38,673 nucleotides of DNA from Candidatus Bathyarchaeota archaeon (GTDB lineage Archaea > Thermoproteota > Bathyarchaeia > Bathyarchaeales > Bathycorpusculaceae). Positions 10,461 to 36,819 of the stretch are shown here, one piece after another. The number at the start of each line of letters is the position of its first letter. Position 1 is the first letter of the stretch. Position numbers and translations under genes: made by a program. The notes beneath the pieces are model-generated. The model did no database searches and had not been told where the DNA came from. It saw nothing but the letters and a program-made list of their open reading frames with translations. The stretch is taken from the NCBI GenBank assembly GCA_018396955.1, contig JAGTQI010000005.1, positions 1 to 38,673 on the forward strand. Reading direction: 5' to 3'.

Positions 10461-10477
10461 CTCTAACGCGCGCCTCC

Positions 10478-10629: not shown

Positions 10630-11035
10630 GGTGAAAAACTCGTTAGCAAGGTTGTGCTTTCTAATTCCAAAACTGGTGCTGTCACAGAGCTTCCGATAGA
10701 TGGAATTTTTGTTCAGGTTGGTGAAAGGCCTAACAGCCAACTCGCGAAGGAAGCTGGAGTAACCGTAGACGAGCATGGCTACATAATTGTTGATGCTCGT
10801 CAAAGAACAAACGTTCCCGGGGTTTATGCGGCTGGCGACGTTACTAATCACCCGGTTAAGCAGGTTGGGACGGCTGTTGGGCAGGGGATAACCGCCGCCT
10901 TGGAGGCTTATGGTTTTATTCGCAGACCCTACTATTTTAAGCAGTAATGCGCCATTTTGCTCCAAAAATATTATATTATTCTATGGTCTTTCATTCAAAG
11001 CTTCTAGTGCTGATGCGTTTAGATAAGCAACGGGT

Positions 11036-16595: not shown

Positions 16596-17017
16596 AAACT
16601 TATTGGTCTAGGTTTCCAGGGGTCTATTACACCGGAGACTATTGCATGAAAGATGAAGATGGCTATTTCTGGCTTCTTGGGAGGGCAGACGAAGTTCTAA
16701 AGGTTGCGGGGCACAGACTGGGAACTATGGAGCTTGAGAGCGCCGTTATTTCCCATCCGGCAGTGGCTGAAGCCGCCGTAATAGGAAAGCCCCACGAAAT
16801 TAAAGGAGAGGGCATTGTTGTTTTTGCTATCCTAAGGCAAGGTTACGCTCCAAGCGAAAAACTTAAGGAAGAGTTACGAGAGTTCATGAGAAAAACGATA
16901 GGACCTGTGGCCACACCAGACGAAATTTACTTCGTTTCAAAACTGCCAAAAACAAGAAGCGGAAAAATCATGAGGAGAGTTTTAAGAGCTGTTGTTTCAG
17001 GCATGCCAGTAGGCGAT
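16596..17017 (+). repeat. Direct repeat copy B (422 bp) inside acs
   Basis: Identical by reading to 16156..16577; separated by 18 bp, ttcgcatccgccgcagct. Confidence 0.93.
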
Positions 17018-17145
17018 GTCACAACATTAGAAGATGAAGCCTCCGTAGAAGAAGCAAAGCAAGTTTACGAGGAATTCAAAAAGATGATTAAGCTTTGAAT
17101 GAATGAAATTATGGTAAATTCTAATCTCTAGTAATTGTTCTGGAA

Positions 17146-17429: not shown

Positions 17430-18374
17430 ATGGAGAAAAAACTTAAATTCGCCTTCTACTGGGCGGCAAGCTGCGGCGGATGCGAAATCGCCGTCTTAGA
17501 CATTAACGAGAAAATCTTGGATGTTGTAGGCAAGGCGGACATCGTTTTTTGGCCTGTTGCCATGGACATAAAATATAAAGATGTTGAAGCCATGCCAGAC
17601 AAGAGCATAGACGTATGCTTTTTCAATGGAGCTATAAGAACAGAGGAAAACGAGTATATGGCAAAACTGTTAAGGCAAAAATCAAAAGTGCTGGTGGCTT
17701 TCGGCTCATGTGCATGCGACGGCTGCGTAGTAGGTTTAGGGAACTTATGGAGTAGAGAGAAAATTTTTGAAAGAGTATACTTTGAGACACCTTCAACGAG
17801 GAATCCGCAGAGTGTAACTCCTCAAACACGAGTTAAAGTTGCGCGAGGAGAGCTGGAACTTCCAGAGTTTTACGACACTGTCAAAACCTTGGCGCAAACC
17901 GTCGACGTTGACTACTTCATTTCTGGCTGTCCCCCTCCAGTTCCAAGGATAATTGAAGCTTTAGACGCCATTTTAAACGGAAAACTCCCACCTAAAGGCT
18001 CAAGCTTCCTACTAAACAAGTCGGTCTGCGACGAATGCCCAAGAGAAAAGAAGGACCGAAAAATAACCCAGGTAAAGAGAATCTACGAAATAGAAGACGA
18101 CTTCAAAACATGTTTTCTAGATCAAGGCGTGATATGCATGGGGCCAGCCACTAGAGGCGGATGCAGCGCCCAATGCCTTAAGGCGAATATACCCTGCACG
18201 GGATGCGGCGGACCAGCTCCGAGAGTGACAGACCAGGGCGCAGCCATGATAAGCGCCTTCGCCTCCATAGCAGCAGATCCAAAGGTTATTGAGCAGGTGG
18301 TTGACCCTGTTGGGACCTTCTACAAGTATTCCCTCGCTAATTCCATTTTAAGGAGGAGGGTGATGCCCAAATGA
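17430..18374 (+). CDS. mvhG: [NiFe]-hydrogenase small subunit, MvhG-type (copy 1)
   Basis: [64 protein letters not shown]. Confidence 0.94.
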   Translation: MEKKLKFAFYWAASCGGCEIAVLDINEKILDVVGKADIVFWPVAMDIKYKDVEAMPDKSIDVCFFNGAIRTEENEYMAKLLRQKSKVLVAFGSCACDGCVVGLGNLWSREKIFERVYFETPSTRNPQSVTPQTRVKVARGELELPEFYDTVKTLAQTVDVDYFISGCPPPVPRIIEALDAILNGKLPPKGSSFLLNKSVCDECPREKKDRKITQVKRIYEIEDDFKTCFLDQGVICMGPATRGGCSAQCLKANIPCTGCGGPAPRVTDQGAAMISAFASIAADPKVIEQVVDPVGTFYKYSLANSILRRRVMPK

Positions 18375-19828
18375 AAGAGATAGTCATAAACCCAATAACA
18401 AGGCTTGAGGGTCACGGGAAAATAACCATATTCCTAAACGATGAAGGCGACGTGGAGGAGGCTTACTTCCAAGTTCCAGAACTCCGCGGCTTTGAAAAAT
18501 TCTGCGAAGGTCGAAGAGCCGAAGACTTGCCATTAATAATGACACGCATTTGCGGAGTCTGCCCAGTTGCCCACCATATGGCAAGCGCCAAAGCCCTAGA
18601 CGCGGCTTTCAATGTTGAACCACCTGAACCAGCCAAAAAACTCCGCGAATTAATGTATTGTGGCTACTACTTATACGACCACACATTGCACTTTTACTAT
18701 TTAGGCGGTCCAGATTTTGTTGTTGGACCAGACGCACCGCCAGAAAAACGAAACGTTTTAGGCGTCATCGAGAAGGCGGGCCTTGAAATCGGCAAGGAGG
18801 TTATAAAGCATAGGGCTTACGGACAAAAGATAACCGAAATCTTGGGAGGTAAGGCCACTCACCCAGTAAGCGCATGCATCCCAGGGGGGTTTGCAAGACC
18901 AATTTCAGAGGAAGAGCGGCGAGAAATCGAACAGATGGTGAGAAGTTGCCTTGAATTCGCCAAGTTTTCGCTGAAGCTCTTCGATGACATAGTCTTAAAA
19001 AACACGGATTATGTAAACCTGATCAAAAGTGAACCATACACGTTGAAGACTTATTATATGGGTTTGGTGGACAAAAACAATAAGGTGAACTTTTACGATG
19101 GAAACGTCCGCGTAGTCGATCCCAACGGCCGAGAATTCGTCAAATTCTCACCAAGAGAGTATTTAGACGTTATAGAAGAGCACGTGGAACCATGGACTTA
19201 CGTGAAGCTTCCATACTTGAAGAAGATAGGCTGGAAAGGTCTTGTGGACGGTCCAGAAAGCGGAGCCTACCGTGTCGGTCCATTGGGAAGGCTTAACGCG
19301 GCGGATGGCATGGCAACACCGCTAGCTCAAGCCGAATATGAGCGGATGTATGCTACACTAGGCGGAAAACCTGTTCACAACACTTTGGCTTACCATTGGG
19401 CTAGGCTTATTGAGCTTTTGTACGCGGCTGAACGCGCCCTAGAACTTGTAACGGACCCAGAAATAACTAGCAAAAATGTCCGCAACAAGCCTGGCAAGCC
19501 AGGCGAAGGCGTTGGAATTGTGGAGGCTGCAAGGGGCACGCTTATACATCATTATCAATTGGACGAGAACGCTTTGGCTAAAAAAGTTAATTTGATAGTT
19601 GCCACCGTCAACAACGCGCCAAGCATCTGCATGTCCATTAGAAATGCGGCTAAAGGCTTAATCAAGAAGGGCAATGTTACCGACGGCATATTAAACATGG
19701 TGGAGATGGCTTTCCGGGCTTACGACCCATGTTTCGCATGTGCCACCCATTTTGCGGTTGGCCAAATGCCCCTGGAGGTTGAAATTTATGACAGCGAGAA
19801 AAGGCTCGTCCAAAAAATCAAAAGGTAA
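18371..19828 (+). CDS. mvhA: [NiFe]-hydrogenase large subunit, MvhA-type (copy 1)
   Basis: RICGVCPVAHH (L1) and DPCFACATH (L2), followed by a 25-aa tail typical of a protease-cleaved C-terminus; 4-nt overlap with mvhG. Confidence 0.95.
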   Translation: MKEIVINPITRLEGHGKITIFLNDEGDVEEAYFQVPELRGFEKFCEGRRAEDLPLIMTRICGVCPVAHHMASAKALDAAFNVEPPEPAKKLRELMYCGYYLYDHTLHFYYLGGPDFVVGPDAPPEKRNVLGVIEKAGLEIGKEVIKHRAYGQKITEILGGKATHPVSACIPGGFARPISEEERREIEQMVRSCLEFAKFSLKLFDDIVLKNTDYVNLIKSEPYTLKTYYMGLVDKNNKVNFYDGNVRVVDPNGREFVKFSPREYLDVIEEHVEPWTYVKLPYLKKIGWKGLVDGPESGAYRVGPLGRLNAADGMATPLAQAEYERMYATLGGKPVHNTLAYHWARLIELLYAAERALELVTDPEITSKNVRNKPGKPGEGVGIVEAARGTLIHHYQLDENALAKKVNLIVATVNNAPSICMSIRNAAKGLIKKGNVTDGILNMVEMAFRAYDPCFACATHFAVGQMPLEVEIYDSEKRLVQKIKR

Positions 19829-19859
19829 AGGAAAAGGGAGGAAAAGGAGGGGAGCAAAG

Positions 19860-22280
19860 GTGAAAGCCATGGAAGAGGCAAAAGTTGGAGTCTTCCTATC
19901 CGACTGCGGAGGACAAATAGCAAAAATCCTAGACTTCGAAGCCCTAACAAACTTTGTTAAGACTGTTCAAGGCGTAACCTTTGTCGCTAGAGCCAACGAG
20001 TTCTGGCGAGGCGAAGGCCTAAAAATCATAGTAGACGCCGTTAAGACTAAAAAGGTAAACCGCGTCGTCGTAGCAGAAGCAGTTCCAAAAATCAGCGAGG
20101 TAGCCATAGCAAAGGCTGTTGAAGAGGCTGGACTTAACCCGCATTTAGTTGAGGTTCTAGACCTAAAAGACCATTGTGCATTGCCCCACAGGGACACGCC
20201 TAAAGAGGCTACTGAAAAGGCTAAGGCGATGCTCTTAGCCGCCATTGAAAAGGCTAGGCTGCTAGAGCCAATTGAAAAGACAGAGTTTCCAGCCGTTAAA
20301 TCCGTCCTAGTTATTGGCGGCGGAATAGCTGGGATGCAAGCAGCTGAAGACCTAGCTGACATGGGCTTCCAAGTTCACTTAATAGAGAAGGAGCCCTTCC
20401 TGGGAGGTTTAGCCGCTAAAGCCGTTCGCTTTTTCCCAACAGACGACTGCGCCATATGCATCCAATCTCCAGCGACGGATCTGAAAACTGTGACCCAGAC
20501 ATCGAGGAAATGTGTTTACCGCTCTGGTTTTTCGGAGATTCCAAACCTAAACATTTTGACAAACGCCAAAGTCGTGAAGGTTGAGGGCGGCCCTGGAAAC
20601 TTCAAGGTGACTGTAGAACGAAAACCCCGCTATGTGGATGAGAAGAAATGTGTGGCATGCGACTTGTGCACAAGCGTCTGCCCGGTTGAAGTTCCAGACG
20701 AGTATAACGCCAAGCTCACTAAGCGGAAAGCCATTTACATAAACAAGCCGCTGGTTTACCCGCCAGCTTATGCCATAGACGCCAAAGTCTGCAAGTTCCA
20801 CGAATGCGCCAAATGCGTTGAAGTTTGTCCGACAAAAGCCGTTAATCTAGACCAGAAAACAGAGCATGTGACCCTTAATGTTGGCGGCATAATTGTGGCT
20901 ACAGGCTTCCGCGAGTATGACCCAAGCGTTATAAAAGAGTACCATTATGGCGAATATCCGGACGTGATAACGCATCTGGAGCTGGCAAGGATGCTGGACG
21001 CCTTCGGCCCAACAAACGGAGTGCCAGTAAGACCCTCAGATAGGAAACCGGCAAAACGCATAGTCTTCGTGCAGTGTGTAGGCTCAAGGGACAGGCGTTG
21101 GAACCCCTACTGTTCAAGTATTTGCTGTATGATTTCGCTGAAGCACGCCACACTAATTAAGGAGGCTTATCCAGACACGGACGTTACCATATGCTATATA
21201 GATATCCGCACAACTGGCAGAGAACATGAATACTATTATGAAAGAGCTCGGGAAATGGGTGTGAAATTCGTTAAGGGAAGACCATCCGAAATAATCCACG
21301 ATCCAGCCACAAACACTCTGATTGTGGAGGTTGAAGACGAGCTTTTAAGAAGGCTTATGGAGCTTGAGGCCGACTTGGTGGTTTTAGCCGCAGCCATGGT
21401 TCCATCCGAGGACACAAAGGAGCTGGCGCAAATCCTCGGAGTAGAACTGGACCAAGATGGCTTCTTTAAAGAGTATAACGCCAAGCTTAGGCCTACCGAA
21501 ACAAAGCGGAGAGGCATATTCATATGCGGAGGCGCCGTCTTCCCGAAGGACGCCCCTACAACCTCGCTTCATGCACATTCAGCAGCCGTTAAGGCAGCGA
21601 AATTCCTTATGAATGGCAAAATTACCAAAGACTTGAAAGTAGCCGTTGTAAATGAGGATTACTGTGGCAACTGCCAGTTCTGTCCAGTGACATGCCCATA
21701 TGGCGCCATTACCCTTGAGCCTAAAGGCGACGGCCACTTTGTGGCTAAGGTTTCTGAACTAATATGCGAAGGCTGCGGCGTCTGCGTTGGCACATGCCCA
21801 GTAGGCGCCATAGAACTCCGCCACCTCAAGCCAAGCCAAATATCCGCCCAGATGAAGGCGCTATTGTCTGTTAATGGTACTTCCAAGCCGCTTGTGCTGG
21901 CTTTCAGCTGTTCAGAATGCGGCCATGCAGCTGTAGACTCTTCCGGAATGGCTATGATGAGCTACCCTGCCAACGTCAGAGTCCTGCGGGTTCCATGCAC
22001 AGGCGTAATCCAAGTCCAGCACATACTTGAAGCTTTTAAGGCTGGAGCCCAAGGGGTCATGGTGGTTGGCTGCAAACCAGACGGGTGCCACTATGAGGTT
22101 GGAAGCCAAAAAGCCCAGAAGAAGGTTGAGATGGCAAAGATGCTGCTCCAAGCCTATGGCATAGAGCCCGAAAGACTCGAAATGTTCAACCTAGTCTTCA
22201 TAGAAGGCGACAAATTTGCAGAAGCAGCCAAAGCCATGACCGAAAGGGTGGAAAGGCTGGGCTTACTCCAACTCGCATAA
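19860..22280 (+). CDS. hdrA: HdrA with fused, cysteine-retaining C-terminal MvhD domain
   Basis: FAD GGGIAGMQAAEDLA, CVACDLCTSVCP, CHECAKCVEVCP, CGNCQFCPVTCP, CEGCGVCVGTCP, C-terminal FSCSECG...VPCTG...GCKPDGCHYE. Start taken at GTG 19860 after a GGAGG tract; track start 19740 overlaps mvhA. Confidence 0.92.
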   Translation: MKAMEEAKVGVFLSDCGGQIAKILDFEALTNFVKTVQGVTFVARANEFWRGEGLKIIVDAVKTKKVNRVVVAEAVPKISEVAIAKAVEEAGLNPHLVEVLDLKDHCALPHRDTPKEATEKAKAMLLAAIEKARLLEPIEKTEFPAVKSVLVIGGGIAGMQAAEDLADMGFQVHLIEKEPFLGGLAAKAVRFFPTDDCAICIQSPATDLKTVTQTSRKCVYRSGFSEIPNLNILTNAKVVKVEGGPGNFKVTVERKPRYVDEKKCVACDLCTSVCPVEVPDEYNAKLTKRKAIYINKPLVYPPAYAIDAKVCKFHECAKCVEVCPTKAVNLDQKTEHVTLNVGGIIVATGFREYDPSVIKEYHYGEYPDVITHLELARMLDAFGPTNGVPVRPSDRKPAKRIVFVQCVGSRDRRWNPYCSSICCMISLKHATLIKEAYPDTDVTICYIDIRTTGREHEYYYERAREMGVKFVKGRPSEIIHDPATNTLIVEVEDELLRRLMELEADLVVLAAAMVPSEDTKELAQILGVELDQDGFFKEYNAKLRPTETKRRGIFICGGAVFPKDAPTTSLHAHSAAVKAAKFLMNGKITKDLKVAVVNEDYCGNCQFCPVTCPYGAITLEPKGDGHFVAKVSELICEGCGVCVGTCPVGAIELRHLKPSQISAQMKALLSVNGTSKPLVLAFSCSECGHAAVDSSGMAMMSYPANVRVLRVPCTGVIQVQHILEAFKAGAQGVMVVGCKPDGCHYEVGSQKAQKKVEMAKMLLQAYGIEPERLEMFNLVFIEGDKFAEAAKAMTERVERLGLLQLA

Positions 22281-22307
22281 GAAGGAACAAAAATAGGAGA
22301 TGCCAAA

Positions 22308-22814
22308 ATGTCTGGAGAAAAACCCCTCGACTTCACAAAGGAGATAACCAGCAAGCTCGGCGGGGAAACAATAGCCCGCTGCTACCAGTGCGGAACATGC
22401 GCCAGCACATGCCCAGTCACCAGAACAACAGAACGCTACAACCCTCGCCAAATAATAAGGCTTGCTCTGCTAGGGCAAAGGGACGAAGTTCTAAAGGGCG
22501 ACTCCATATGGCTTTGCGCCTCATGTTACAACTGCCAAGAACGATGCCCCCAAAAAGTTGAGATCGCAGACGTAATATATGCTTTAAGAAACATAGCCAT
22601 CCGTGAAGGCAACATACCAGCCATATACACAGAATTCGCCAATGGACTCATGAGTGAAGGGCGCCTAGCCCCAATATCAAAATTCTTGGAAAAGAAAAGA
22701 GCCGACTACGGCTTACCACCACTGAAGCCGACTGGCGTGGAAGCCATTAAAAAGATTCTAGCGGCAACAGGCTTCGACAAAATCATGTTCAAAAAGGAGG
22801 GTACACCACAATGA
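22308..22814 (+). CDS. hdrC: Heterodisulfide reductase subunit C
   Basis: CYQCGTCASTCPVT and CASCYNCQERCPQKVEIADVIYALRNIA; 4-nt overlap with hdrB. Confidence 0.95.
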   Translation: MSGEKPLDFTKEITSKLGGETIARCYQCGTCASTCPVTRTTERYNPRQIIRLALLGQRDEVLKGDSIWLCASCYNCQERCPQKVEIADVIYALRNIAIREGNIPAIYTEFANGLMSEGRLAPISKFLEKKRADYGLPPLKPTGVEAIKKILAATGFDKIMFKKEGTPQ

Positions 22815-23686
22815 CAAGCTACGCCTTGTTTTTAGGTTGCACAATACCAGCCCGTCAGCCCCACTATGAACTCGCAGCAAGAAAAGCCCTAACAAGGCTT
22901 GGAATACAACTTGTGGACATGGAAGGCGCAACATGTTGCGCTCCGCCACCACTCCAATCCATAGACTTGGAAACAAGTTTGGCAATAGCCGCCTACAACA
23001 TCTGCCTAGCAGAAGAAGCCGACTTAAACATTGTCACGTTGTGCACCGGATGCTTCGAATCCCTAACAATTGCGAATCGCCTCCTAAAGGAAAAGCCGGA
23101 ACTACGCGAAAAAGTCAACAAGATTTTAGCTAATGCTGGTAAAGAGTTTAGAGGCACAAAAGAGGTTAGGCATTACTTACAAGTCTTAATGGACGACATA
23201 GGCATAGACCGCCTAAAACAAAGCATAGTCAAGCCCCTAAACAACCTTAAAGTAGCCGCCTTTTCCGGATGCCACCTCCTACGCCCAAGCGAGCTCCTAC
23301 GTTTCGACGACCCAGAACGCCCCCGCATATTCGACACTCTAATAGAGGCTTTAGGAGCCAAAAGCATACCATATAAGAATAAGCTGCGGTGCTGCGGGGG
23401 GCTCCTCAGAGGCTATGCAGATGACGTGGCACTAGCCATAGCAAGAGACAAAATTGTAAACGCCTACAACGCCGGAGCAGACTGCATATCAACCCTATGC
23501 CCCTTCTGCTTTTTAACCCTAGACCTTGGACAAATGCTAATAAAAGCAACCTACAAGGAAGAATACAACATGCCAATAATCCACTACGCCGAACTATTAA
23601 GCCTAAGCCTAGGGGTAGAGCCAAAAGAACTCGCACTAGATTTCCACAAGGTAAAAATAGACAGAGTTTTGGAAAAGATAGGCTGA
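22811..23686 (+). CDS. hdrB: Heterodisulfide reductase subunit B
   Basis: Two CCG domains: LGCTIPARQ...TCCAPPPL...LCTGC and SGCHLLRPSE...LRCCGG...LCPFC. Confidence 0.95.
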   Translation: MTSYALFLGCTIPARQPHYELAARKALTRLGIQLVDMEGATCCAPPPLQSIDLETSLAIAAYNICLAEEADLNIVTLCTGCFESLTIANRLLKEKPELREKVNKILANAGKEFRGTKEVRHYLQVLMDDIGIDRLKQSIVKPLNNLKVAAFSGCHLLRPSELLRFDDPERPRIFDTLIEALGAKSIPYKNKLRCCGGLLRGYADDVALAIARDKIVNAYNAGADCISTLCPFCFLTLDLGQMLIKATYKEEYNMPIIHYAELLSLSLGVEPKELALDFHKVKIDRVLEKIG

Positions 23687-24547: not shown

Positions 24548-25621
24548 CTATTTCTTTCCAATAGTCAAAGGCAGAGTTCTGACGTGCTTAACTGCCCGAA
24601 CAACATCGCCAACATACTTGCCCGGATCTTCTAGAGCTCTGTTTATGGCTATTTCAGCTATTGTGGCGCCTTTGTCGGCAATTTTGCTTAGGCACGATAG
24701 AATGGAACGAATGTAGGGGATTTCTGGAGCTTCCCTCATAAGCCTATTCGAGTCAACTTCAAGCACTTTTATCATCTCTAAAAGCTGGTTTGCAACCTTC
24801 AAATCCCTTGTGAAAATGCATTCAATAGATTTCTGAAGAATTGTCTGGGTCAGCTCACTTAAATGGAATATTCGGTCAACGACATCGTTGGGAATCCTAT
24901 TCCTATAAATCTCCATTTCAAGAACTTCTCTGGCCATGTCTTCAGAGTAATCCGCAACCAACTCTAAATACTGAAGTATAAGCCTGGCAGCCGGTATGAA
25001 AAGCACATCAACCATGCCAACTTCTTCAGCAATAGCCGGCTTCACTTGTGCAGAAAGAAGTAAACGCACTGCCAAATAATAGATTTTGTCCGCTTCGTCT
25101 TCTCTGGCTATTGCCTCCTCCACAATCTCATATTTTTTCTCCTTAAAGCCTTGCATTGCCTCAGAAAGTATTGTTGACGCTATGAGAGCAAGCCTCCGTA
25201 TGAGCATGTCAAGCTTAAACTTTGTAGAGTCTATGGAACACTGTAAAAGTATGCTTTTAGGGGTCTCCTCAAGAATGCCAAGCCCAATAAGCTTTTGAAC
25301 TATTCTCCGCACTTCATCCACGTGGTTTCTACTAATACGACTTGTGGAAATTACCCGTATAACATCTCGTCCAAGAATATAGCTTCCAACAATAATTCTT
25401 TCAAGCATTCCAGGCTCATCACATGCGTCAGCATTCACTATGTATTCCTCGGCCTCCTCTTTTTGGGCTATATGCCTCGGCATTATTTTTAGGGAGCCGT
25501 CCCTTTCAGGTATTATGAATAGTAGGTCTCTTGGTTTTATGCCGTGTTCTTTGATCCACTCGTTTGGTAGCGAAACTGTCATGGTTGAGTGGCCTACTCT
25601 TTGAACCTTTCTAATTTCCAA
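24548..25621 (-). CDS. AbrB-type DNA-binding domain fused to PhoU domains (archaeal phosphate uptake regulator)
   Basis: N-term MEIRKVQRVGHSTMTVSLPNEWIKEHGIKPRDLLFIIPERDGSLKIMPR (SpoVT/AbrB) then helical PhoU-like repeats. Confidence 0.85.
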   Translation of the reverse strand: MEIRKVQRVGHSTMTVSLPNEWIKEHGIKPRDLLFIIPERDGSLKIMPRHIAQKEEAEEYIVNADACDEPGMLERIIVGSYILGRDVIRVISTSRISRNHVDEVRRIVQKLIGLGILEETPKSILLQCSIDSTKFKLDMLIRRLALIASTILSEAMQGFKEKKYEIVEEAIAREDEADKIYYLAVRLLLSAQVKPAIAEEVGMVDVLFIPAARLILQYLELVADYSEDMAREVLEMEIYRNRIPNDVVDRIFHLSELTQTILQKSIECIFTRDLKVANQLLEMIKVLEVDSNRLMREAPEIPYIRSILSCLSKIADKGATIAEIAINRALEDPGKYVGDVVRAVKHVRTLPLTIGKK

Positions 25622-25747
25622 AGGTTTCCCTCTATTTATAGTATTTACTTTAGCACATTTATTTATTCTATATTTTCTATTTGCGTTAGATATATATTTT
25701 TCGCTTTGCTCTATATATCATGCAGATGTAAAGGAGGTTGATGTGAA

Positions 25748-26338
25748 ATGTCTGAATGGAAAACCGTAAGCATAAGACAAGAGCTGATAAAAGAGATTGA
25801 AAGACTCCTCAGGACAGGACGTTACAGGAGCATATCAGAATTTGTCTCAGAAGCCATAAGGCTACGCCTAGAAGAGCTAATGAGAGCTGAGGGAATTCCG
25901 CCGGCAAAACGTGAAATGCTTTTGGCAATACCAGAACAGCTGCTATACACGCCTAAGCATACATGGGCGCAAATAACCCCCGAAGGAAACATCCGTGTGG
26001 GTGTTTCAGACTACGCTCAAAGACACCTTAAAGGCATTGCCAACATAATAACTGAACCCGTTGGAAAGGAAATAGCGAAAATGGAGCCGTTCGGTGTGGC
26101 TGAGACCTGGATGTTTATGTTTGATTTATACGCGCCCGTAAGCGGCAAAATTGTTAAAGTTAACGAGCAGTTGAAGGATAAACCTTACCTAGTAAATGAG
26201 GATCCGTATGGCGAGGGCTGGATAATCGAAATTAAGCCCAAAAACTCTTTGACGCTTGAAGAGGAACTCAAAAGTCTTCTAAGCTCCAGGGAATACAACA
26301 AGTGGGTTAGCAAGCTTGAGGGGAGGCTCCGTGAATAG
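25748..26338 (+). CDS. Ribbon-helix-helix DNA-binding domain fused to GcvH-like (lipoyl-carrier fold) domain with lipoyl Lys replaced by Met
   Basis: KTVSIRQELIKEIERLLRTGRYRSISEFVSEAIRLRLEEL (RHH) plus YTPKHTWAQITPEGNIRVGVSDYAQRHL...VAETWMFMFDLYAPVSGKIVKVNEQLKDKPYLVNEDPYGEGWIIEIKP (GcvH). SD aaggaggttg upstream. Confidence 0.9.
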   Translation: MSEWKTVSIRQELIKEIERLLRTGRYRSISEFVSEAIRLRLEELMRAEGIPPAKREMLLAIPEQLLYTPKHTWAQITPEGNIRVGVSDYAQRHLKGIANIITEPVGKEIAKMEPFGVAETWMFMFDLYAPVSGKIVKVNEQLKDKPYLVNEDPYGEGWIIEIKPKNSLTLEEELKSLLSSREYNKWVSKLEGRLRE

Positions 26339-26458: not shown

Positions 26459-28177
26459 TTGACGGAAAAACTCCTACAAGAGGTTAGGAAATTTCCTCCT
26501 TGTCGAGCGGCATGTCCAGCACATGTCAACGTCCAAGCTTATGTGGCTCTCATTCAAAGAGGCAAGTTCAAGGAAGCCGTCGAAGTTATAAGGCGGGATA
26601 TGCCCTTTCCAGCCATCTGCGGAAGGGTTTGCTTCAGCCCATGTGAAGATGCATGTGCAAGAGTCAACCTTGATCAGGCGGTTGCCATACGCGCTTTGAA
26701 AAGGCTTGTGGCCGACATTGAACGTGAACAGGGAAGAGTTGTCGCAGAGCCCGTTCCAAAAAAGTACGGCGAAAAAATAGCAATAATAGGCGCTGGCCCA
26801 GCTGGATTAACAGCAGCTTATGAGCTTGCGAAGTTGGGCTATCCTGTTACTGTTTTTGAGCGGATGGATGAGCCTGGCGGCATGATGCGCTACTGCATAC
26901 CAGACTTCCGTTTAGAAAAATTTGTCGTTGCCAATGAAATCGCCTATATCAAGGACATTGGTGTTGAAATCAAAACTGGTGTCGAGTTCGGCAAGGACAT
27001 AACCATTAAAAGCCTTAAAGAGGATGGTTATAAGGCGATTTTCTTATCTATCGGCACACAATTGGGCATGAAATTAAATGTTCCCGGAGAAGACTTGGAG
27101 GGCGTAATAAACGCTGTTGACTTTTTAAGGGCAATAGCTCTGGAGAAGAAAATTACGGTTGGCGAAAGAGTAGCCGTTATCGGCGGCGGCAACACAGCCA
27201 TAGATGCTGCGAGGATGGCTAAAAAGCTCGGCGCTAAAGAGGTTATGATTCTTTATAGGCGGTCCCGCGAGGAGATGCCAGCGCTCCCACATGAAGTGGA
27301 GCTTGCCGAGAAGGATGGGATAAAGTTCTATTTCCTAGTGGCTCCAAAGCAGATTATAGGCGAGAATGGAAGGGTTAAGGCTGTTGAATGCTTAAGGATG
27401 CGCCTGGGCGAGCCTGACGAAAGCGGGAGAAGACGACCAATACCGATTGCCTTCTCGGAGCACCAGTACGAGGTAGACATGGTTATCCCAGCTCTTGGGC
27501 AAATTGTTGAAACATCTATTTTGCCGCCGGAACTTATAAGCAAGGAAAAGCGGGGACCACCGCTACAAGTGGACCCATTAACCCTTGAAACCAATGTTCC
27601 CGGGGTTTTCGCGGGTGGGGATGTTGCTACTGGTCCGGCGAGCATTATTGAGGCTGTTGGCGCCGGTAAACGTGCAGCCGTTTCAATACACCGTTATTTG
27701 AGGGGTGAGGATCTGAGGAAGGGCGTAGAAGAGGAGAAGATTGAGGAGACTACTTGGGTTAAGGATTGGCGGTTGCTGGAGAAAAAGGAGCGTAGATATG
27801 ATGCTCCGATAGAGAAACCCCACCTAAGCTTTGAAGAGGCAAAGGAATATCTTGAAAAGTTGAAGCGTCAAGCAAGGTTTGAGGCTTTTCGATGTCTTGG
27901 ATGTGGACCGTGTGCAGAGTGCCTTGCCAGCATGGACTTGTGTGAGGGCGACAAGGCTGTTGTTGATGAGGGCAAATGTGTAGGTTGCAACGTCTGCGCA
28001 GTCGTCTGCCCAGTGGGTGCCATCAAAAAGAACGAGAAGGGCGTAGCCCAAGTAAACGAAGACCTTTGCAAGGGCTGTGGACTATGTGCGGCGCGTTGCC
28101 CAGAGAGAGCTATAACTATGAAGAAGCTTTCCGACGAGCAGATCATAACAATGGTTTTAACAGCCTTGGAGAGGTGA
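26459..28177 (+). CDS. GltD/NfnB-like NAD(P)H oxidoreductase with C-terminal 2x[4Fe-4S] ferredoxin domain
   Basis: [58 protein letters not shown]-term CVGCNVCAVVCP, CKGCGLCAARCP. TTG start. Confidence 0.92.
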   Translation: MTEKLLQEVRKFPPCRAACPAHVNVQAYVALIQRGKFKEAVEVIRRDMPFPAICGRVCFSPCEDACARVNLDQAVAIRALKRLVADIEREQGRVVAEPVPKKYGEKIAIIGAGPAGLTAAYELAKLGYPVTVFERMDEPGGMMRYCIPDFRLEKFVVANEIAYIKDIGVEIKTGVEFGKDITIKSLKEDGYKAIFLSIGTQLGMKLNVPGEDLEGVINAVDFLRAIALEKKITVGERVAVIGGGNTAIDAARMAKKLGAKEVMILYRRSREEMPALPHEVELAEKDGIKFYFLVAPKQIIGENGRVKAVECLRMRLGEPDESGRRRPIPIAFSEHQYEVDMVIPALGQIVETSILPPELISKEKRGPPLQVDPLTLETNVPGVFAGGDVATGPASIIEAVGAGKRAAVSIHRYLRGEDLRKGVEEEKIEETTWVKDWRLLEKKERRYDAPIEKPHLSFEEAKEYLEKLKRQARFEAFRCLGCGPCAECLASMDLCEGDKAVVDEGKCVGCNVCAVVCPVGAIKKNEKGVAQVNEDLCKGCGLCAARCPERAITMKKLSDEQIITMVLTALER

Positions 28178-28178
28178 A

Positions 28179-28931
28179 ATGAAAATGGAGTCTTCTAATC
28201 CGCCAAAAATTGTTTGTTTCATGTGTAACTGGGCTTTCTGCGAGGAGGAGATGCGGGTTCCCTACAATGTCAATGTGATCCGCGTCATGTGTGTTGGAAG
28301 GATGGATCCCGCACTGGTTTTGGAAACTTTTGCCAATGGAGCTGAAGGCGTTTTGCTTGTTGGGTGTAAACCTCCGGACTGCCACTTTGTTGATGGAAAC
28401 CTCCACGCTGAACGTGCGGTCAAAATGTTAAAGAAGCTGCTGGCTTTGGCTGGGCTTGAGCCTGAAAGATTAAAGCTTCTGCTGGTATCACCATTAGAGG
28501 ACAAAGACTTCAGCCGCCACGCCAAAGGGTTCTCCGAAGAAGTTTGGAAGCTTGGAAACTCTCCATTAAGCAAGGAAGAAATTGTAGCTAATCTTATAGC
28601 GGCTAAGGAGGCGGCTTCAGCGTTTAGGCTTCGCGTCTTGCTGGGAAGAGAGGAAGAGCTGACCGAGTTTATGAATGCTTATGGTGAGAAAATACCGGAA
28701 GAAGAGTTTGACGCTTTGTTAGATGATATCGTTAGGGCTGAGTTCATCCGCTACAAAATCCACTACTTGACAAGGACTAAGCCCCGCTCTGTTAAGGAGT
28801 TAGCCCAAATCCTTGGGATAAAGCCTTCTGCTGTTTTGAGGCACATAACGAATATGCGGCGTAAGGGCATGATAGCCCTAGACCATGTGGAGGGTTACAC
28901 GCCATTGTATAAGGCTTTGGAGGTGCGATAA
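28179..28931 (+). CDS. MvhD-type [2Fe-2S] domain fused to C-terminal winged-HTH domain
   Basis: CFMCNWAFCEEE...RVMCVGRMD...VGCKPPDCHFVDGN then RYKIHYLTRTKPRSVKELAQILGIKPSAVLRHITNMRRKGMIALDHVEGYTPLYKAL. Confidence 0.88.
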   Translation: MKMESSNPPKIVCFMCNWAFCEEEMRVPYNVNVIRVMCVGRMDPALVLETFANGAEGVLLVGCKPPDCHFVDGNLHAERAVKMLKKLLALAGLEPERLKLLLVSPLEDKDFSRHAKGFSEEVWKLGNSPLSKEEIVANLIAAKEAASAFRLRVLLGREEELTEFMNAYGEKIPEEEFDALLDDIVRAEFIRYKIHYLTRTKPRSVKELAQILGIKPSAVLRHITNMRRKGMIALDHVEGYTPLYKALEVR

Positions 28932-28934
28932 GAG

Positions 28935-31900
28935 ATGGCTGAAGGGAAGGTTGGCGCAGTTCTAGTCGTTGGTGGAGGCGTGGCTGGAATACAAGCTGCT
29001 TTGGACTTGGCTGATTCTGGCTTTAAAGTGTACATGGTTGACCAGTCGCCCAGCATTGGCGGCGTCATGGCTCAACTTGATAAGACTTTCCCAACAAATG
29101 ATTGTTCCATGTGTATTTTGGCTCCTAAGCTTGTTGCCGCTGGGAGACATCCAAACATTTCGCTGATTACGAACAGCGAAGTGTTGGGCTTAAGCGGAGA
29201 AGCTGGAAACTTCGAAGTGAAAATTCGAAAACGCAGTCGTTACATAAATGAGGAAAAGTGCAATGGCTGTGGGCTTTGTGCGCAAAAATGTCCAGTTGAA
29301 GCCATAGACACCTACAACAAGGGCTTAACGGACAGAAGCGCCGTCTACGTCGAATTTCCACAGGCGGTTCCATTACGCTTCAAGATAGACCGCGAGAAAT
29401 GCATTGGCTGCAGAACATGTCAAGAGGTTTGTAAGGCAAATGCTGTTGAATACGACCAAAAGGACAGCGAAATAGTTCTAAATGTTGGCGCAATCATATT
29501 GGCACCAGGCTTCGAACCATTTGATGCACGGCTGAAAAGCGAATATGGTTATGGGCGATATGCAAATGTTGTCACAAGCATAGAGTTTGAACGAATTCTG
29601 AGCGCTTCCGGACCATATGGCGGAATTGTTTTAAGGCCTTCAGACGGCGAAATTCCACGTAAAATTGCCTTTATCCAATGTGTGGGTTCCCGTGACGCTC
29701 AGCTTGGGAACAATTATTGCTCGGCTGCTTGTTGCATGTACAGCATTAAAGAAGCCATTATAGCCAAGGAGCATGTTCCAACAAAGCTGGACTGCACAAT
29801 TTTCTATATGGATATACGCGCTTACGGAAAGGAGTTTGACGCCTACTATAAGCGTGCCCAGGAGGAGTATGGCATACGCTTTGTCCGCTCAAGGGTTGCA
29901 AGCATAACCGAAGATCCAGCAACCGGCAACTTGCTCGTCCATTATGTGGGCGAGGATGAAACTCCGAGAATTGAAGAGTTCGATATGGTTGTATTATCCA
30001 CAGGCATGCAGTCGCCAAAAGACGTGGAGAAACTGGCTAAGACGCTTGGAATAAAGCTTAACAAGTACCGTTTCTGCGAAACCAAAACTTTTACGCCTTT
30101 AGAAACTTCAAAGCCCGGCGTATATGTTTGCGGAGCCTTTAGTTCTCCGAAGGATATTCCGGAAAGTGTTGCTCAAGCAAGTGGTGCCGCGGCAAAAGCC
30201 ATGGCAATAATAGCCCCAGAACGGGGTAAGCTTATTGCTGTTAAGGAGTATCCGGCTGAAAGGGACGTTAGCCAAGAGGAACCTCGCATAGGAGTTTTCA
30301 TATGCCACTGTGGCATAAACATCGGCGGTATTGTGCGGGTTCCTGAGGTTGTGGAATACGCCAAGAAGCTTCCAAATGTTGTTTATGCTGAAGACAACCT
30401 TTACACGTGCTCCGATGACACTCAAAAGCGGATTAAGGAGAAGATTAAAGAGTATAACCTAAACCGTGTTGTTGTGGCTTCTTGCACGCCCAGAACCCAC
30501 GAGCCGCTCTTTCGTGAAACCGTCCGCGAGGCTGGCTTAAACCCATACCTTTTTGAGATGGCGAACATCCGAGACCAGTGCAGTTGGGTGCACATGCATG
30601 AGCCAGACGAGGCTACGGAAAAGGCGAAGGACCTTGTCCGCTCGGTTGTCGCCAAGGCAAGACTCTTAAAGCCGTTGAAAAATCCGACGGTTAAAGTCAC
30701 TCCTGTAGGGCTTGTTATTGGCGGCGGAGTTTCCGGAATGACTGCAGCGCTGGAGTTGGCAAATCAAGGCTTTGAGGTTCACCTTGTAGAACGTGAGAAA
30801 GAGCTTGGCGGACACCTGAGGAAAATCTACTATTTGCTTGAGGGTGAAGACCCGCAAAAGCACTTAGAGAGGCTTGTTAAGGCTGTTATGGAGAACAGGC
30901 TTATCCATGTTTATCTTGGTGCAGAGGTTGTTGAAGTAAGCGGTTTTGTCGGCAACTTCAAATCGAAAATAAGGCTGAGCAGCGGCGAGGAAAAAGAGGT
31001 GGAACACGGCGTAGTCATTGTTGCAACCGGCGCGGTAGAGTATAAGCCAAAAGAGTATTTGTATGGAGAAGACCCCCGTGTCATGACCCAACACGAGCTG
31101 GAGGAGAAAATAGCCAAAGGCGAGTTTAAAGCCAAAAAAGTTGTCATGATTCAGTGTGTGGGCGCGAGAAACGAGGAACGCCCCAACTGCGCGAGGATAT
31201 GTTGTGGACAAGCCATCAAAAACGCCCTAAAAATTAAGGAGCAGAATCCGGACGCTGATGTTTATGTCTTATACAAGGATGTTAGAAGTTACGGCTTTAA
31301 GGAGGAGTACTACCGCGAGGCTGCGGCAAAAGGTGTCATTTTCATAAACTATTCTGATGAGAGAAAGCCAAAAGTAACAAATGATGGCGGGAAGTTAAAA
31401 GTAGCCTTCTACGAACCGGTGCTAAAGCAGGAAGTCCAATTAGAGCCAGACTACGTCATTTTAAGCGCTGCAACCATTCCCAACCCCGACAACAAGCGCA
31501 TAGCCGAAATGTTGAAAGTGCCGCTGACAAAGGACGGCTTCTTCCTTGAAGCTCACATGAAGCTTCGCCCAGTGGACTTCCAAACCGACGGCGTTTTCCT
31601 ATGCGGCATGGCTCATTCGCCAAAGTTCATTGATGAAAGCATCTCCCAAGCGTGTGCTGCTGCGGCGCGGGCAGCTACAATATTGTCAAAGAAGGTCCTT
31701 GAAATGGAAGGGATTGTGGCAAGTGTAGATGAAGATTTATGTAGTGGATGCAGAATCTGTGAATTTCTATGCCCCTACGGCGCGATTGAGATGAAAGAGA
31801 GAGACGGCAAAATAGTGGCTCACGTGATTGAAGCCTTATGCAAGGGCTGTGGCGTCTGCGGAACGGCATGCCCAACAAAGGCCATAACCCTCGGCCACTT

Positions 31901-31967
31901 CACAACTGAGGAAATTCTCGCCCAAGTTAGGGCAGTATTGCAGGAAATGGAGGTAGCAGCCAAATGA
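28935..31967 (+). CDS. hdrA: Double HdrA: two fused HdrA-type flavoprotein halves (1010 aa)
   Basis: Two FAD sites ([28 protein letters not shown]), internal second HdrA N-term ([11 protein letters not shown]...[11 protein letters not shown]), [24 protein letters not shown]-term [24 protein letters not shown]. Confidence 0.93.
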
Positions 31968-32404
31968 GAGAATCCCAAAAAGATTTCGAGCCGAAAATTG
32001 TTGGTTTTCTATGCAACTGGTGTGCCTATGCAGGGGCGGACTTGGCTGGTGTAAGCCGCATCCAATACCCTCCAAACATCCGTGTTATCCGCGTCATGTG
32101 CAGCGGAAGAATAGACCCTGCCTTTATCCTTGAAGCCCTAAAAAATGGCGCCGACGGCGTTTTGGTGGCTGGCTGCCACCTGCCATCCGACTGCCATTAT
32201 CTTAGTGGTAACTTTAAGGCTTTGAGAAGGGTAACGCTATTAAAGAGGGTGCTCAAAGATTTTGGGATAGAACCTGAACGTGTGCGGCTGGAATGGGTCT
32301 CCGCCAGCGAAGGAGACAAATTCGCAGCTGTGGTACGAGACATGGTTGAACAGATTAAGAAGCTCGGTCCAAACCCGTTAAAGGTGATGGAGGAAAAGAA
32401 ATGA
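31964..32404 (+). CDS. mvhD: MvhD/FlpD-type [2Fe-2S] electron transfer subunit
   Basis: [49 protein letters not shown]; 4-nt overlaps with neighbours. Confidence 0.95.
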
Positions 32405-32970
32405 GTGAGACGAAAAGTGAAGCCCGCGAATATGTTCCGCCAGTGATTAAGGCTGAGGAGCTTGACCCAAAGTTCAAGTATAAAATGAGCAAGATGCACG
32501 GCGCAGAAAAAGTGATGGTTTGCTTCCAGTGTGGGACATGTACAGCTGACTGCCCTATCGCCAGATTCAGCGAATTTTACCGACCGCGCCGAATAGCCCG
32601 CATGGTTCAATTGGGCTTGAAGGATAGGCTTTTGCTGGACAAAGCTTTGTGGCTGTGCTCATCATGCTTCACGTGTGTGGACCATTGTCCACAAGGTGTG
32701 GAAATTGCTGGTATAGTTCGAGTTTTGCGGAACATGGCAGCCGCGGACAAAAACCTTCTTCCACTAGTTTACAAGGAGTTAGCTACAAACTTGATGAAAA
32801 GCGGCTTTGTCTACGAGATTCCAGAGTCAAGGCTTCAAAAACGGGTTGAGCAGGGGCTTCCGCCGCTGCCAAAGCCAAACGTGAAAGATGTTATGAAAAT
32901 TTTTGAGGTTACTGGTTCCGCTTGTTTGCTTGAAAAGGTTCAAACTTTTGCGAAGGTGGAAAGTAAATGA
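32401..32970 (+). CDS. hdrC: Heterodisulfide reductase subunit C (copy 2)
   Basis: [16 protein letters not shown] and [28 protein letters not shown]. Confidence 0.95.
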
Positions 32971-33845
32971 GCAACCCTAAATATTTGTTGTTTCCGGGCT
33001 GCGTGATTCCTTATAGGCTTTCAAGCTACGAGATATCCGCCAGAAAAGTTCTCGCCAAACTTAGTGTGGAAATTGTTGAAATGCCAGAATACAACTGCTG
33101 TGGTTACCCAATGGACGTTATAAACCATGATCTAATGCTGACATTGGCGGCGAGAAACCTTTGCATAGCAGAGAATGTGGGCTTACCAATAATGACCCTC
33201 TGCAACGGATGCTTCTGCAGCCTTAACGAAACCAACAAAATTCTAAAAGAGGACAAAAAGCTCCGAGACAAGATTAATGGCTATTTGAAAGAGGTTGGCA
33301 TGGAGTTTAAAGGCACAACAGAAGTCAAACACTTAATCTACGTGCTTTCAGAGGATGTGGGTTATGAGCGGATAAAAAACGCTGTTGTAAAGCCTTTAAC
33401 TGGTATTCGTGTAGCCCAGCACAGCGGATGCCACGTTTTAAGACCCCGCAAATATGTGGGACGGGACGATCCGGAAAACCCGACAACCCTCAAAGAACTG
33501 ATTAGGCTGACTGGAGCCGAATGCTTAGATTATATGGACGAGACAGAGTGCTGCGGCAACCCAATAATAGGCGTTAATGAGGATGTGCCCTTCCAAATGG
33601 CTAAAGAAAAACTTGACCACGTGCGAACTGCTGGTGCCCAAGCGCTTATAACTGTCTGTCCCTTCTGCCACATAATGTTTGACCTAAACCAACCCCGCAT
33701 AGAAAGAGCCTTCAACGAAAAATTCAACATGCCAGTCCTCCACTATCCACAGCTTCTAGGATTAGCCATGGGATTCTCACCTGAAGAGTTGGCCCTAAAC
33801 GAGCTCAGGGTAAAACCAACAGAATTATTAAACCAAATTAAATAG
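32967..33845 (+). CDS. hdrB: Heterodisulfide reductase subunit B (copy 2)
   Basis: PGCVIPYRL...NCCGYPMD...LCNGC; SGCHVLRP...ECCGNP...VCPFC. Confidence 0.95.
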   Translation: MSNPKYLLFPGCVIPYRLSSYEISARKVLAKLSVEIVEMPEYNCCGYPMDVINHDLMLTLAARNLCIAENVGLPIMTLCNGCFCSLNETNKILKEDKKLRDKINGYLKEVGMEFKGTTEVKHLIYVLSEDVGYERIKNAVVKPLTGIRVAQHSGCHVLRPRKYVGRDDPENPTTLKELIRLTGAECLDYMDETECCGNPIIGVNEDVPFQMAKEKLDHVRTAGAQALITVCPFCHIMFDLNQPRIERAFNEKFNMPVLHYPQLLGLAMGFSPEELALNELRVKPTELLNQIK

Positions 33846-33848
33846 AGA

Positions 33849-34841
33849 GTGAGTTTTATGGCAAAACAGAAATTGAAATTTGCCTTTTATTGGGCGGCCA
33901 GCTGTGGCGGATGTGAAATTGCCGTTTTAGATATTAACGAGAAAATCTTGGAGGTTTTGCAAATCGCGGACATTGTTTTTTGGCCTGTTGCCATGGACAT
34001 TAAATATAAAGATGTTGAAGCCATGCCCGACAAATACATTGATGTTTGCTTCTTTAATGGTGGAATCCGAAACAGCGAACAAGAGTATATGGCGAAGCTG
34101 TTAAGGCAGAAGTCGAAAGTGCTTGTGGCTTATGGCGCTTGTGCACATCTTGGCGGTGTTCCTGGGCTGGCTAATCTCCACAACAGAGAGGAAATCTTCG
34201 AAAAGGTTTATGCCCAAACATTTTCAACAGACAACCCCAACAGGGTTTTCCCACAGCCAAAAGTCCGGGTTAAGGAGGGCGAATTGGAGATTCCAGAGTT
34301 CTATGACACTGTGCGAACCCTAGACCAAACAGTGGATGTTGACTATTATGTGCCGGGCTGTCCGCCGGCGGTGGAGCGCACTTTATTCGCCTTGGAAGCC
34401 ATAGCTAAAGGCGAGCTGCCGCCAAAAGGCTCTGTTCTAGCACCGTTAAAGTCTGTTTGCGACGAGTGCCCCAAAAAGAAGGAGGACAAGAAAATATCGC
34501 GGATATACCGCGTCTACGAGAAGGCTCCGGACCCGGAGAAGTGCCTACTTGAGCAGGGAATCCTCTGCATGGGACCAGCCACAAGGGGCGGCTGCAGCGC
34601 AAGATGTCTTAAGGTGGATATGCCATGCACTGGTTGTGGGGGTCCATGTCCAAACGCTCCGGAGCAGGGCGCCGCCATGATTAGCGCTTTGGCTTCCATA
34701 CTTGGCTTGGAGGAGGAGAAGGAGAAATACACCGAGGAGGAGGTTGAAAGGCTGATAGACCAAATTAAGGATCCTATTGGAACCTTCTACATGTATGCTT
34801 TACCAGCTTCGATACTGCGGAGGAGGGTGATTCGCGAATGA
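33849..34841 (+). CDS. mvhG: [NiFe]-hydrogenase small subunit, MvhG-type (copy 2)
   Basis: [52 protein letters not shown]; true start may be ATG 33858. Confidence 0.94.
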   Translation: MSFMAKQKLKFAFYWAASCGGCEIAVLDINEKILEVLQIADIVFWPVAMDIKYKDVEAMPDKYIDVCFFNGGIRNSEQEYMAKLLRQKSKVLVAYGACAHLGGVPGLANLHNREEIFEKVYAQTFSTDNPNRVFPQPKVRVKEGELEIPEFYDTVRTLDQTVDVDYYVPGCPPAVERTLFALEAIAKGELPPKGSVLAPLKSVCDECPKKKEDKKISRIYRVYEKAPDPEKCLLEQGILCMGPATRGGCSARCLKVDMPCTGCGGPCPNAPEQGAAMISALASILGLEEEKEKYTEEEVERLIDQIKDPIGTFYMYALPASILRRRVIRE

Positions 34842-36292
34842 AGGAGATAATAATTGACCCTATTACTAGGCTTGAGGGACACGGTAAAATAGCCATATTC
34901 TTAAACGATGCTGGCGAGGTGGAGAACGCCTACCTTCAAATTCCGGAGCTTCGCGGTTTTGAAAGGTTCTGTATTGGGCGGAAAGCCGAGGATATGCCGC
35001 TTTTGACTAGCAGAATCTGTGGTGTCTGTCCAGTGGCGCACCACATGGCTGGGACAAAGGCTTTGGATGCTGCCTTTAACGTGGAGCCACCGTCGGCGGC
35101 TAAAAAGCTTCGTGAACTTATGTATTGTGGCTATTACATTTACGACCACACATTGCACTTTTACTATTTAGGCGGACCAGACTTTGTTGTTGGACCAGAC
35201 GCGCCGCCGGAAAAGCGCAATATTCTTGGGGTTATTGAAAAGGCTGGCTTGGATGTTGCTAAGGAGGTTATTAAGCATAGGGCTTATGGACAGCGAATAA
35301 CCGAAATTATTGGTGGAAAGGCTACTCATCCGGTCTGCGGTTTGCCCGGCGGTATTTCCAAGCCTTTAAGCGAGGAAAATAGGCGGGAAATTGAGAAGAT
35401 GGCAACTTCAGCTGTTGAATTTGCAAAGTTTTCCTTGAAGCTTTTCCATGACATTGTTTTGGACAACACCAAGTACGTTGAGCTAATTAAGAGTGACGCT
35501 TACACCCTTCGCACCTATTACATGGGTTTAGTGGACGAGCACAACAAGGTGAACTTTTACGACGGGAAAATAAGGGTTGTAGATCCAAACGGTAAAGAAT
35601 TCGTGAAGTTTGAGGCTAAAGATTATTTAGAGCACATCGCAGAGTATGTGGAGCCATGGACCTATGTTAAGCTTCCATATCTGAAGAAGGTCGGTTGGAA
35701 AGGCTTTGTTGACGGTCCTGACAGCGGCGCTTACCGGGTGGGACCCCTTGGAAGGCTTAATGCGACGGATGGCATGGCTACACCATTAGCCCAAGAAGAA
35801 TACGAGTTTATGTATAAGACTTTGGGCGGGAAACCAGTGCACTCAACTTTGGCTTACCATTGGGCTAGACTTATCGAACTTTTGTATGCGGCTGAAAGAG
35901 CCGTTGAGCTTGTCAAAGACCCGGAGATAACGAGCACTAATGTGCGGAGTAAGCCTGGCAAGCCCGGTGAAGGCGTAGGCGTTGTTGAAGCGGCTAGGGG
36001 CACTTTGATTCACCATTATGTTTTGGACGAGAACGCCTTAATCAAGGATGTCAACTTGATTGTGGCTACCGTTAACAATGCACCTTCGATTAACATGTCC
36101 ATTCGGAATGCGGCTAAGGGTTTGATTCAAGGAGGCAAAGTAGACCAAGGCTTGCTTAACATGGTTGAGATGGCTTTTAGGGCTTATGACCCATGCTTTG
36201 GATGCGCCACTCATTTTGCTGTTGGGCAGTTGCCATTAACCGTTGAAATCTACAACCATGAGGGAAAACTCGTTAGAACCGTGCAGAGGTAA
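34838..36292 (+). CDS. mvhA: [NiFe]-hydrogenase large subunit, MvhA-type (copy 2)
   Basis: RICGVCPVAHH and DPCFGCATH plus 25-aa C-terminal tail. Confidence 0.95.
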   Translation: MKEIIIDPITRLEGHGKIAIFLNDAGEVENAYLQIPELRGFERFCIGRKAEDMPLLTSRICGVCPVAHHMAGTKALDAAFNVEPPSAAKKLRELMYCGYYIYDHTLHFYYLGGPDFVVGPDAPPEKRNILGVIEKAGLDVAKEVIKHRAYGQRITEIIGGKATHPVCGLPGGISKPLSEENRREIEKMATSAVEFAKFSLKLFHDIVLDNTKYVELIKSDAYTLRTYYMGLVDEHNKVNFYDGKIRVVDPNGKEFVKFEAKDYLEHIAEYVEPWTYVKLPYLKKVGWKGFVDGPDSGAYRVGPLGRLNATDGMATPLAQEEYEFMYKTLGGKPVHSTLAYHWARLIELLYAAERAVELVKDPEITSTNVRSKPGKPGEGVGVVEAARGTLIHHYVLDENALIKDVNLIVATVNNAPSINMSIRNAAKGLIQGGKVDQGLLNMVEMAFRAYDPCFGCATHFAVGQLPLTVEIYNHEGKLVRTVQR

Positions 36293-36327
36293 GTCTTCGC
36301 TCTTCCCCTTTTTATTTTTGGAGATTT

Positions 36328-36819
36328 TTGTTTTTGGAAGTTTCTTTTGAGAAGAAGTTGAGGGATTGGCTTTCCGATGCCGAAAGGGTTGTTATCGCCG
36401 GTATTGGTAACCCTATCCGCATGGATGATTTTGTCGGCGTGAAAATTGTCCGTGACTTGCTGGGGAAAGTTTCTGGAAAGGTCTTGCTAGTTGAGTGTGA
36501 GACTGTTCCTGAAAGTTTTGTTCAGCAGATAGCGGATTTTAAGCCTTCGCATGTTTTGCTTATTGATGCTGCTGTTATGGGTTTGGAGGCTGGCGAGTGT
36601 AGGCTTGTTAAGCCTGAACGCTTGCGGGTTTTTCCGGCTATTTCAACTCATATGCTTCCGCTTCGGGTTTTTTGCGAGTATCTTGCCAAAACCGTTGGTG
36701 CCAAAATAGCCCTACTGTTAATAGAGCCTAAAAATACGGATTTTGGGGAAGGCTTGTCTGGGGAGGTTAAGGCTTCTGCGGAGAGAATTGTGAAATTTTT
36801 GTTGTCTGTTCTTCCATGA
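36328..36819 (+). CDS. Hydrogenase maturation protease (HycI/FrhD-like)
   Basis: VVIAGIGNPIRMDDFVGVKIV, ECETVPESF, VLLIDAAVMGLEAG, STHMLPLRVFCEYL; immediately downstream of mvhA copy 2; start codon uncertain (TTG). Confidence 0.88.
   Translation: MFLEVSFEKKLRDWLSDAERVVIAGIGNPIRMDDFVGVKIVRDLLGKVSGKVLLVECETVPESFVQQIADFKPSHVLLIDAAVMGLEAGECRLVKPERLRVFPAISTHMLPLRVFCEYLAKTVGAKIALLLIEPKNTDFGEGLSGEVKASAERIVKFLLSVLP

Follow-up and report, generated by a model that had tools for sequence, protein, structure and literature searches.

What does a protein do that joins a ribbon-helix-helix (RHH) DNA-binding domain to a GcvH-like domain with no lysine at the lipoyl site? The question is raised by a 196-aa reading frame in a 38,673-nt stretch of a Candidatus Bathyarchaeota contig, which we analysed at its full length and refer to as the window. 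The sequence-only reading of this DNA had proposed a carrier domain repurposed as the sensor or effector part of a transcription factor. It is the lysine that normally defines a swinging-arm carrier domain, and to our knowledge gene regulation in Bathyarchaeia is almost unknown.

Domain make-up and lipoyl site of the fusion

The reading frame begins with ATG, has an aaggaggt ribosome-binding stretch 5′ of the start, and is divided as follows:

25748 to 26338, + strand: RHH-GcvH-like fusion, 196 aa (ORF call, Pfam, NCBIfam, AlphaFold model)
25748 to 25888, + strand: RHH DNA-binding domain, aa 1-47 (Pfam RHH_1, family profile against NikR, invariant residues)
25928 to 26311, + strand: GcvH-like domain, aa 61-188 (Pfam GCV_H, AlphaFold model, Foldseek)
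26102 to 26125, + strand: hairpin E119-T-W-M-F-M-F-D126, in which the lipoyl Lys has become Met122 (26111-26113; alignment column counts)

For the C-terminal part, Pfam GCV_H matched aa 65-188 over the full profile (E=1.2e-30) and NCBIfam PRK01202 scored above its model's cut-off (2.9e-36), while the gcvH equivalog TIGR00527 stayed at 103.7 bits, below its cut-off of 115.85. This part can be aligned over its whole length with H-proteins of solved structure, and the AlphaFold monomer model (mean pLDDT 83, mostly 85-97 within the GcvH part) retrieved H-proteins in Foldseek with E-values down to 6.9e-14 and a TM-score of about 0.9 by target length. Pfam and Foldseek thus agree that both the domain and the fold of GcvH (H-protein) are present, as the sequence-only reading had it from end to end.

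The N-terminal assignment is weaker in the single sequence, with an RHH_1 match at aa 6-43 (E=0.0018) of 18.6 bits, about 2 bits short of the gathering score of 20.5. Across an alignment (A3) of 56 proteins, consisting of 42 fusions, 2 lone copies and 12 canonical GcvHs, RHH_1 matched 27 at E<=0.01, with a best value of 4.3e-6, and residues L13, S30, F32, V33 and A36 were invariant across 21 diverse members. A profile built from the family's first 52 residues matched NikR chains (E=0.005); a ribosomal eL39 chain ranked higher (0.0019), but its match covers 18 residues and has an E-value of 9.8 when taken separately. In the monomer model, residues 2-22 are helical at low N-terminal confidence, not a strand followed by a helix, and no ribbon strand is formed. 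By the family-wide RHH_1 hits and the NikR match, the N-terminal ~45 aa are nonetheless identified as a strand-helix-helix domain of the CopG/Arc/MetJ type, and the claim of a CopG/RHH domain, faint in one sequence yet strictly conserved in the family, held up.

At the lipoyl hairpin, the E-S-V-K of GcvH aligns with E119-T120-W121-M122, so that the attachment lysine is replaced by a methionine encoded at 26111-26113. The model places a turn at residues 121-123, between strands 114-120 and 124-128, which is the position of the lipoyl hairpin, and the DPYGEGW-type motif and hairpin framework of GcvH are retained. Among 42 distinct fusion proteins, site 122 is Met in 31, Trp in 7, Pro in 3, Leu in 1 and Lys in none; W121 is invariant (42/42), and position 123 is Phe in 40 and Leu in 2. 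Two diverged members have a Lys two residues beyond the site (ETWLFKFD and ETWMFKFE), with none at the site itself. By comparison, all 12 canonical GcvHs in the alignment carry the lysine, as do those collected from the loci, and the tip of the host genome's own canonical GcvH reads ESVKAVSD. The search for further fusions and the alignment of the lysine position that the sequence-only reading had proposed therefore returned a whole family, making its Lys-to-Met claim stronger than originally put; relatives with lysine at the site, which would have confined the loss to this sequence, did not turn up. On the sequence evidence, lipoate cannot be attached to the GcvH domain of the fusions at its usual position. 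Cysteine is absent from 38 of the 42 members and no alignment column has more than one, which makes it unlikely that the protein itself senses through thiols or Fe-S.

The host genome encodes a separate canonical, lysine-bearing GcvH beside a complete glycine cleavage set, and the fusion copy is therefore not needed for glycine cleavage. The genome's inventory comprises GcvP subunits and GcvT as well as two proteins of the BPL/LplA family. With these proteins present, the possibility that the fusion replaced a lost canonical GcvH was ruled out.

Distribution and gene neighbourhood

The fusion was found in 40 of 163 genomes of one Bathyarchaeal order, in four families, and scans of 398 genomes with a profile and with a DNA pattern for the tip did not find it elsewhere in the phylum. 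A scan of GTDB contigs, which used two peptide patterns that more diverged fusions elsewhere could escape, returned only Bathyarchaeal fusions and one Lys-bearing GcvH of Desulfobulbaceae. Pairwise dN/dS, a rough figure with many pairs near saturation, was about 0.05 for the gene as a whole, and 0.05 and 0.06 for the GcvH and RHH parts, respectively, with tip codons changing synonymously. A mutation or pseudogene of a single genome is ruled out by the 40 genomes and this dN/dS, and an assembly artefact by the identical junction in many independent MAGs.

In the tree, a branch with 100/100 support separates the fusions and two lone copies from canonical GcvHs. Families f6 and f7 and genome G006 have a tandem pair of diverged fusion copies, A and B, both without the lysine; in genome G058 a third RHH gene adjoins the tandem pair (L052:12264-12617), with a short Cys-containing C-terminal part in place of GcvH. 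The two lone copies, L133 (genome G483) and L098, are Lys-less GcvH proteins without the RHH domain and occur as extra copies alongside a fusion. L133 encodes 126 aa with a scrap of RHH-like sequence at its N-terminus and has a well-supported place among the fusions from its family, which suggests that it lost the RHH domain secondarily. L098, a lone protein reading ETWMFMFD, sits on a long branch whose position is uncertain; it comes from the MAG record set JAOUKN, which also holds the fusions of L094. Being extra copies in fusion-bearing genomes and placed among the fusions, both look secondary, although they indicate that the GcvH-like domain can persist without DNA binding. The prospect that the two parts might be separate proteins in relatives thus comes down to these two genes.

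Around the fusion, the window contains a divergent regulator and two operons:

17430 to 23686, + strand: upstream Mvh-Hdr operon of MvhG, MvhA, HdrA-FlpD, HdrC and HdrB (Pfam; conserved in many f1 loci)
24548 to 25621, − strand: divergent AbrB(MazE)-PhoU regulator, 357 aa (Pfam PhoU 2.4e-14, MazE 3.6e-6)
26459 to 36819, + strand: downstream operon of GltD-like/Fer, FlpD-wHTH, HdrA (1010 aa), MvhD, HdrC, HdrB, MvhG, MvhA and HycI (Pfam, conserved order)

The placement between two Hdr operons, as noted in the sequence-only reading, is real and conserved in many relatives. A strong AbrB-PhoU match was present in 37 of the 40 fusion genomes; two of the remaining three have the gene truncated at a contig end. 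Downstream, most loci have the order GltD/Fer, FlpD-wHTH, HdrA, MvhD, HdrC, HdrB, MvhG, MvhA. Several loci of genus g45 instead have TauE/SafE, a 125-aa orphan and then, where the contig permits, a NuoEFG-like and [NiFe] hydrogenase operon, an NAD-type hydrogenase operon containing no Hdr. At L129 (G436) and L130 (G493) the fusion regulator is present with no such operon adjoining, and 9 of the 40 fusion genomes lack a match to FlpD-wHTH, the marker used for the Hdr operon. With two types of downstream operon, the constant partner is AbrB-PhoU, and the genes usually found on the output side belong to hydrogen-linked redox metabolism of either kind. The neighbouring operons are of the HdrABC-MvhADG type with [NiFe] hydrogenase and differ from the sHdr clusters of sulfur oxidation, in which LbpA is encoded. 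The suggested link to sulfur-oxidising Hdr-like systems is not supported by this comparison, given the operon type, the absence of the LbpA lysine and the g45 loci without Hdr.

The slot itself can hold other proteins. In genome G434 (contig C9, L172:7258-8055), an RHH domain of the fusion's type is joined to DUF2096 (Pfam 3.2e-12) in place of GcvH, and this gene lies divergent from AbrB-PhoU and upstream of HdrA, just where RHH-GcvH would be. This swap is direct evidence that the RHH domain stays constant while the C-terminal domain is a module that can be exchanged. Two genomes with AbrB-PhoU and without RHH-GcvH have a stand-alone Lrp/AsnC ligand-binding (RAM) protein in the divergent slot (L173:6265-6591 and L174:1372-1710).

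Several further features of these loci were recorded. A conserved ~125-aa orphan is encoded with a TauE/SafE-like membrane protein 3′ of RHH-GcvH in family f9 (L044:7947-8321 and L124:8003-8374, both − strand), and its L044 copy has no Pfam match. In the window, 28179-28931 encodes an FlpD/MvhD delta-subunit domain with a winged helix-turn-helix, found at E<=1e-40 in 44 of the 163 genomes of the order. An NADH-oxidase-like Pyr_redox_2 domain is spread over two ORFs, 9843-10466 and 10495-10947 (profile positions 2-210 and 162-291), for which a frameshift, an assembly error or a real split are the alternatives. The listed ORFs of MvhA (18371-19828) and HdrA-FlpD (19740-22280) overlap by 89 bases, and the GTG start listed for the latter is probably too early. 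A stand-alone AMP-binding_C domain of 150 aa (16646-17098) directly follows a full acetyl-CoA synthetase-like protein that already contains one.

Candidate sites and the role of the GcvH-like domain

The intergenic region shared with AbrB-PhoU holds two candidate elements:

25640 to 25649, no strand assigned: AGTATTTACT palindrome, candidate operator of the RHH protein or of AbrB-PhoU (RGTAWWTACY scan)
25691 to 25720, + strand: TATATAT-N14-TATATATCA block, candidate promoter/operator, ending 27 bp 5′ of the start codon (exact-copy search, locus comparison)

The palindrome is the only RGTAWWTACY site in the window. Within 407 kb we counted 22 such sites against about 8 expected by shuffling over the whole 407 kb, and 15 of the 22 lie <=330 bp upstream of RHH-GcvH genes. 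It also stands beside AbrB-PhoU in one genome without RHH-GcvH, so the site may belong to AbrB-PhoU. The TATATAT-N14-TATATATCA block has a single exact copy in both the window and the genome, was seen among the compared loci only before RHH-GcvH genes, and has a spacing 1 bp shorter in many relatives. A regulon search with it gave one exact and one 2-mismatch site, against one for a control pattern, and no regulon could be drawn; TATA-rich upstream blocks of this kind may represent the core promoter instead of an operator. The window has neither element 5′ of the downstream Hdr operon, and only gene position suggests that the protein may control this operon directly.

The reading we favour, and consider probable, is that of a one-component transcription factor whose pseudo-carrier GcvH domain docks a partner or oligomerises through its W-x-F tip. 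The N-terminal RHH domain would dimerise and bind DNA in the intergenic region common to the divergent AbrB-PhoU gene, and the protein might in this way control its own gene and, probably, the AbrB-PhoU gene and the downstream hydrogenase/Hdr operon. The C-terminal part keeps the H-protein fold, with no means of holding lipoate in the normal position, and would serve as effector module by protein-protein contact, either partner docking or oligomerisation, with the fixed hydrophobic W-[MW]-F tip as the likely contact surface. The earlier idea of a carrier turned effector is well supported by the conserved fusion, the loss of the lysine, purifying selection, the promoter-side placement and the RHH-DUF2096 swap, its sHdr connection being the part that is not supported. 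More tentatively, the Lys-less carrier might act as a signal receiver that reads out the status of lipoyl or glycine-cleavage enzymes, or of a partner redox enzyme, and sets the H2-linked bifurcation operons accordingly, as one occupant of a modular effector slot.

Narrower or different roles can be weighed against the same data. The GcvH domain could sense the state of lipoylation or of glycine cleavage as a Lys-less decoy that docks an LplA-type ligase, GcvP, GcvT or a dihydrolipoyl oxidoreductase, with partner occupancy setting DNA binding. The strong constraint on the entire GcvH fold fits this, as does a genome encoding GcvP subunits, GcvT, GcvH and two BPL/LplA-family proteins. The tip of a real GcvH, however, enters the active sites of its partners, and here it is replaced by bulky hydrophobics; the gcv genes, moreover, are not adjacent, and we regard the decoy as unlikely. 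Comparably doubtful is a purely structural oligomerisation module that raises the cooperativity of DNA binding with no signal input: a hydrophobic tip suits an oligomer interface and no Cys is conserved, but the DUF2096 swap and the diverged tandem duplicates look more like changing inputs than a scaffold.

Two further explanations appear very improbable. One makes the protein an LbpA-like carrier of electrons or sulfur that serves the adjoining Hdr complex and happens to bear a DNA-binding domain, in keeping with its conserved linkage to Hdr operons and with LbpAs being GcvH-like proteins tied to sHdr genes (PMC6067878); against it stand the absent lysine, the lack of Cys in 38 of 42 members and the several g45 loci where an NAD-type hydrogenase, not Hdr, lies downstream. 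The other takes the RHH part for an antitoxin-like or adaptor module, the protein then not being a transcription factor of these operons. ParD antitoxins are indeed among the weak RHH matches, but no toxin-like neighbour was found among the annotated genes around the fusion, and its neighbours, metabolic operons and a further regulator, come in a fixed order.

If the favoured reading of a regulator with a pseudo-carrier effector is true, a stable Lys-less GcvH lineage under selection and joined to a DNA-binding domain would be a clear case of a metabolic carrier becoming a regulatory module. RHH-GcvH would then be a concrete candidate regulator for the hydrogenase and heterodisulfide-reductase operons of Bathyarchaeia, and the W-x-F tip allows the pseudo-carrier idea to be tested directly with point changes.

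Comparison with known systems

Within the literature covered, text searches turned up no account of an RHH-GcvH regulator. The fusion has the whole domain and the fold in common with GcvH, from which it differs by the absence of the lipoyl lysine, the E-T-W-M-F-M-F-D tip and the added N-terminal RHH domain. It resembles LbpA in being a GcvH-like protein encoded with Hdr genes, and differs in the added RHH domain, the lost lysine and the Hdr-Mvh operons with [NiFe] hydrogenase. In LbpA the lipoyl lysine is strictly conserved in 95 proteins, and two cysteines are conserved with the exception of some archaeal members (PMC6067878). The fusions do not have this cysteine pair, and, the defining lysine being absent, the protein is a member of neither GcvH nor LbpA.

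Among regulators, the closest layout is that of the NikR type, with an N-terminal RHH domain and a C-terminal effector domain. The C-terminal domain of NikR is metal-binding and ACT-like, whereas the effector here is GcvH-like (GCV_H), which sets the fusion apart from NikR with its nickel domain. Archaeal CdrS (PMC7439475) is likewise a small RHH transcription factor of archaea, to which the N-terminal part has a weak match (E=0.0031), but its model is 61 aa long and without a GcvH domain, compared with 196 aa including GcvH in the fusion. Simiate/ABITRAM, a eukaryotic GcvH-like protein, has been proposed as a nuclear-speckle transcription/splicing factor (PMC3859600); it shares the placing of a GcvH-related protein in transcription instead of glycine cleavage, a likeness by description only and hence a lead, and it is eukaryotic and without RHH. 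Overall, RHH-GcvH is a real architecture with no earlier description found, of a known kind, the one-component regulator, and with a mechanism that is partly supported.
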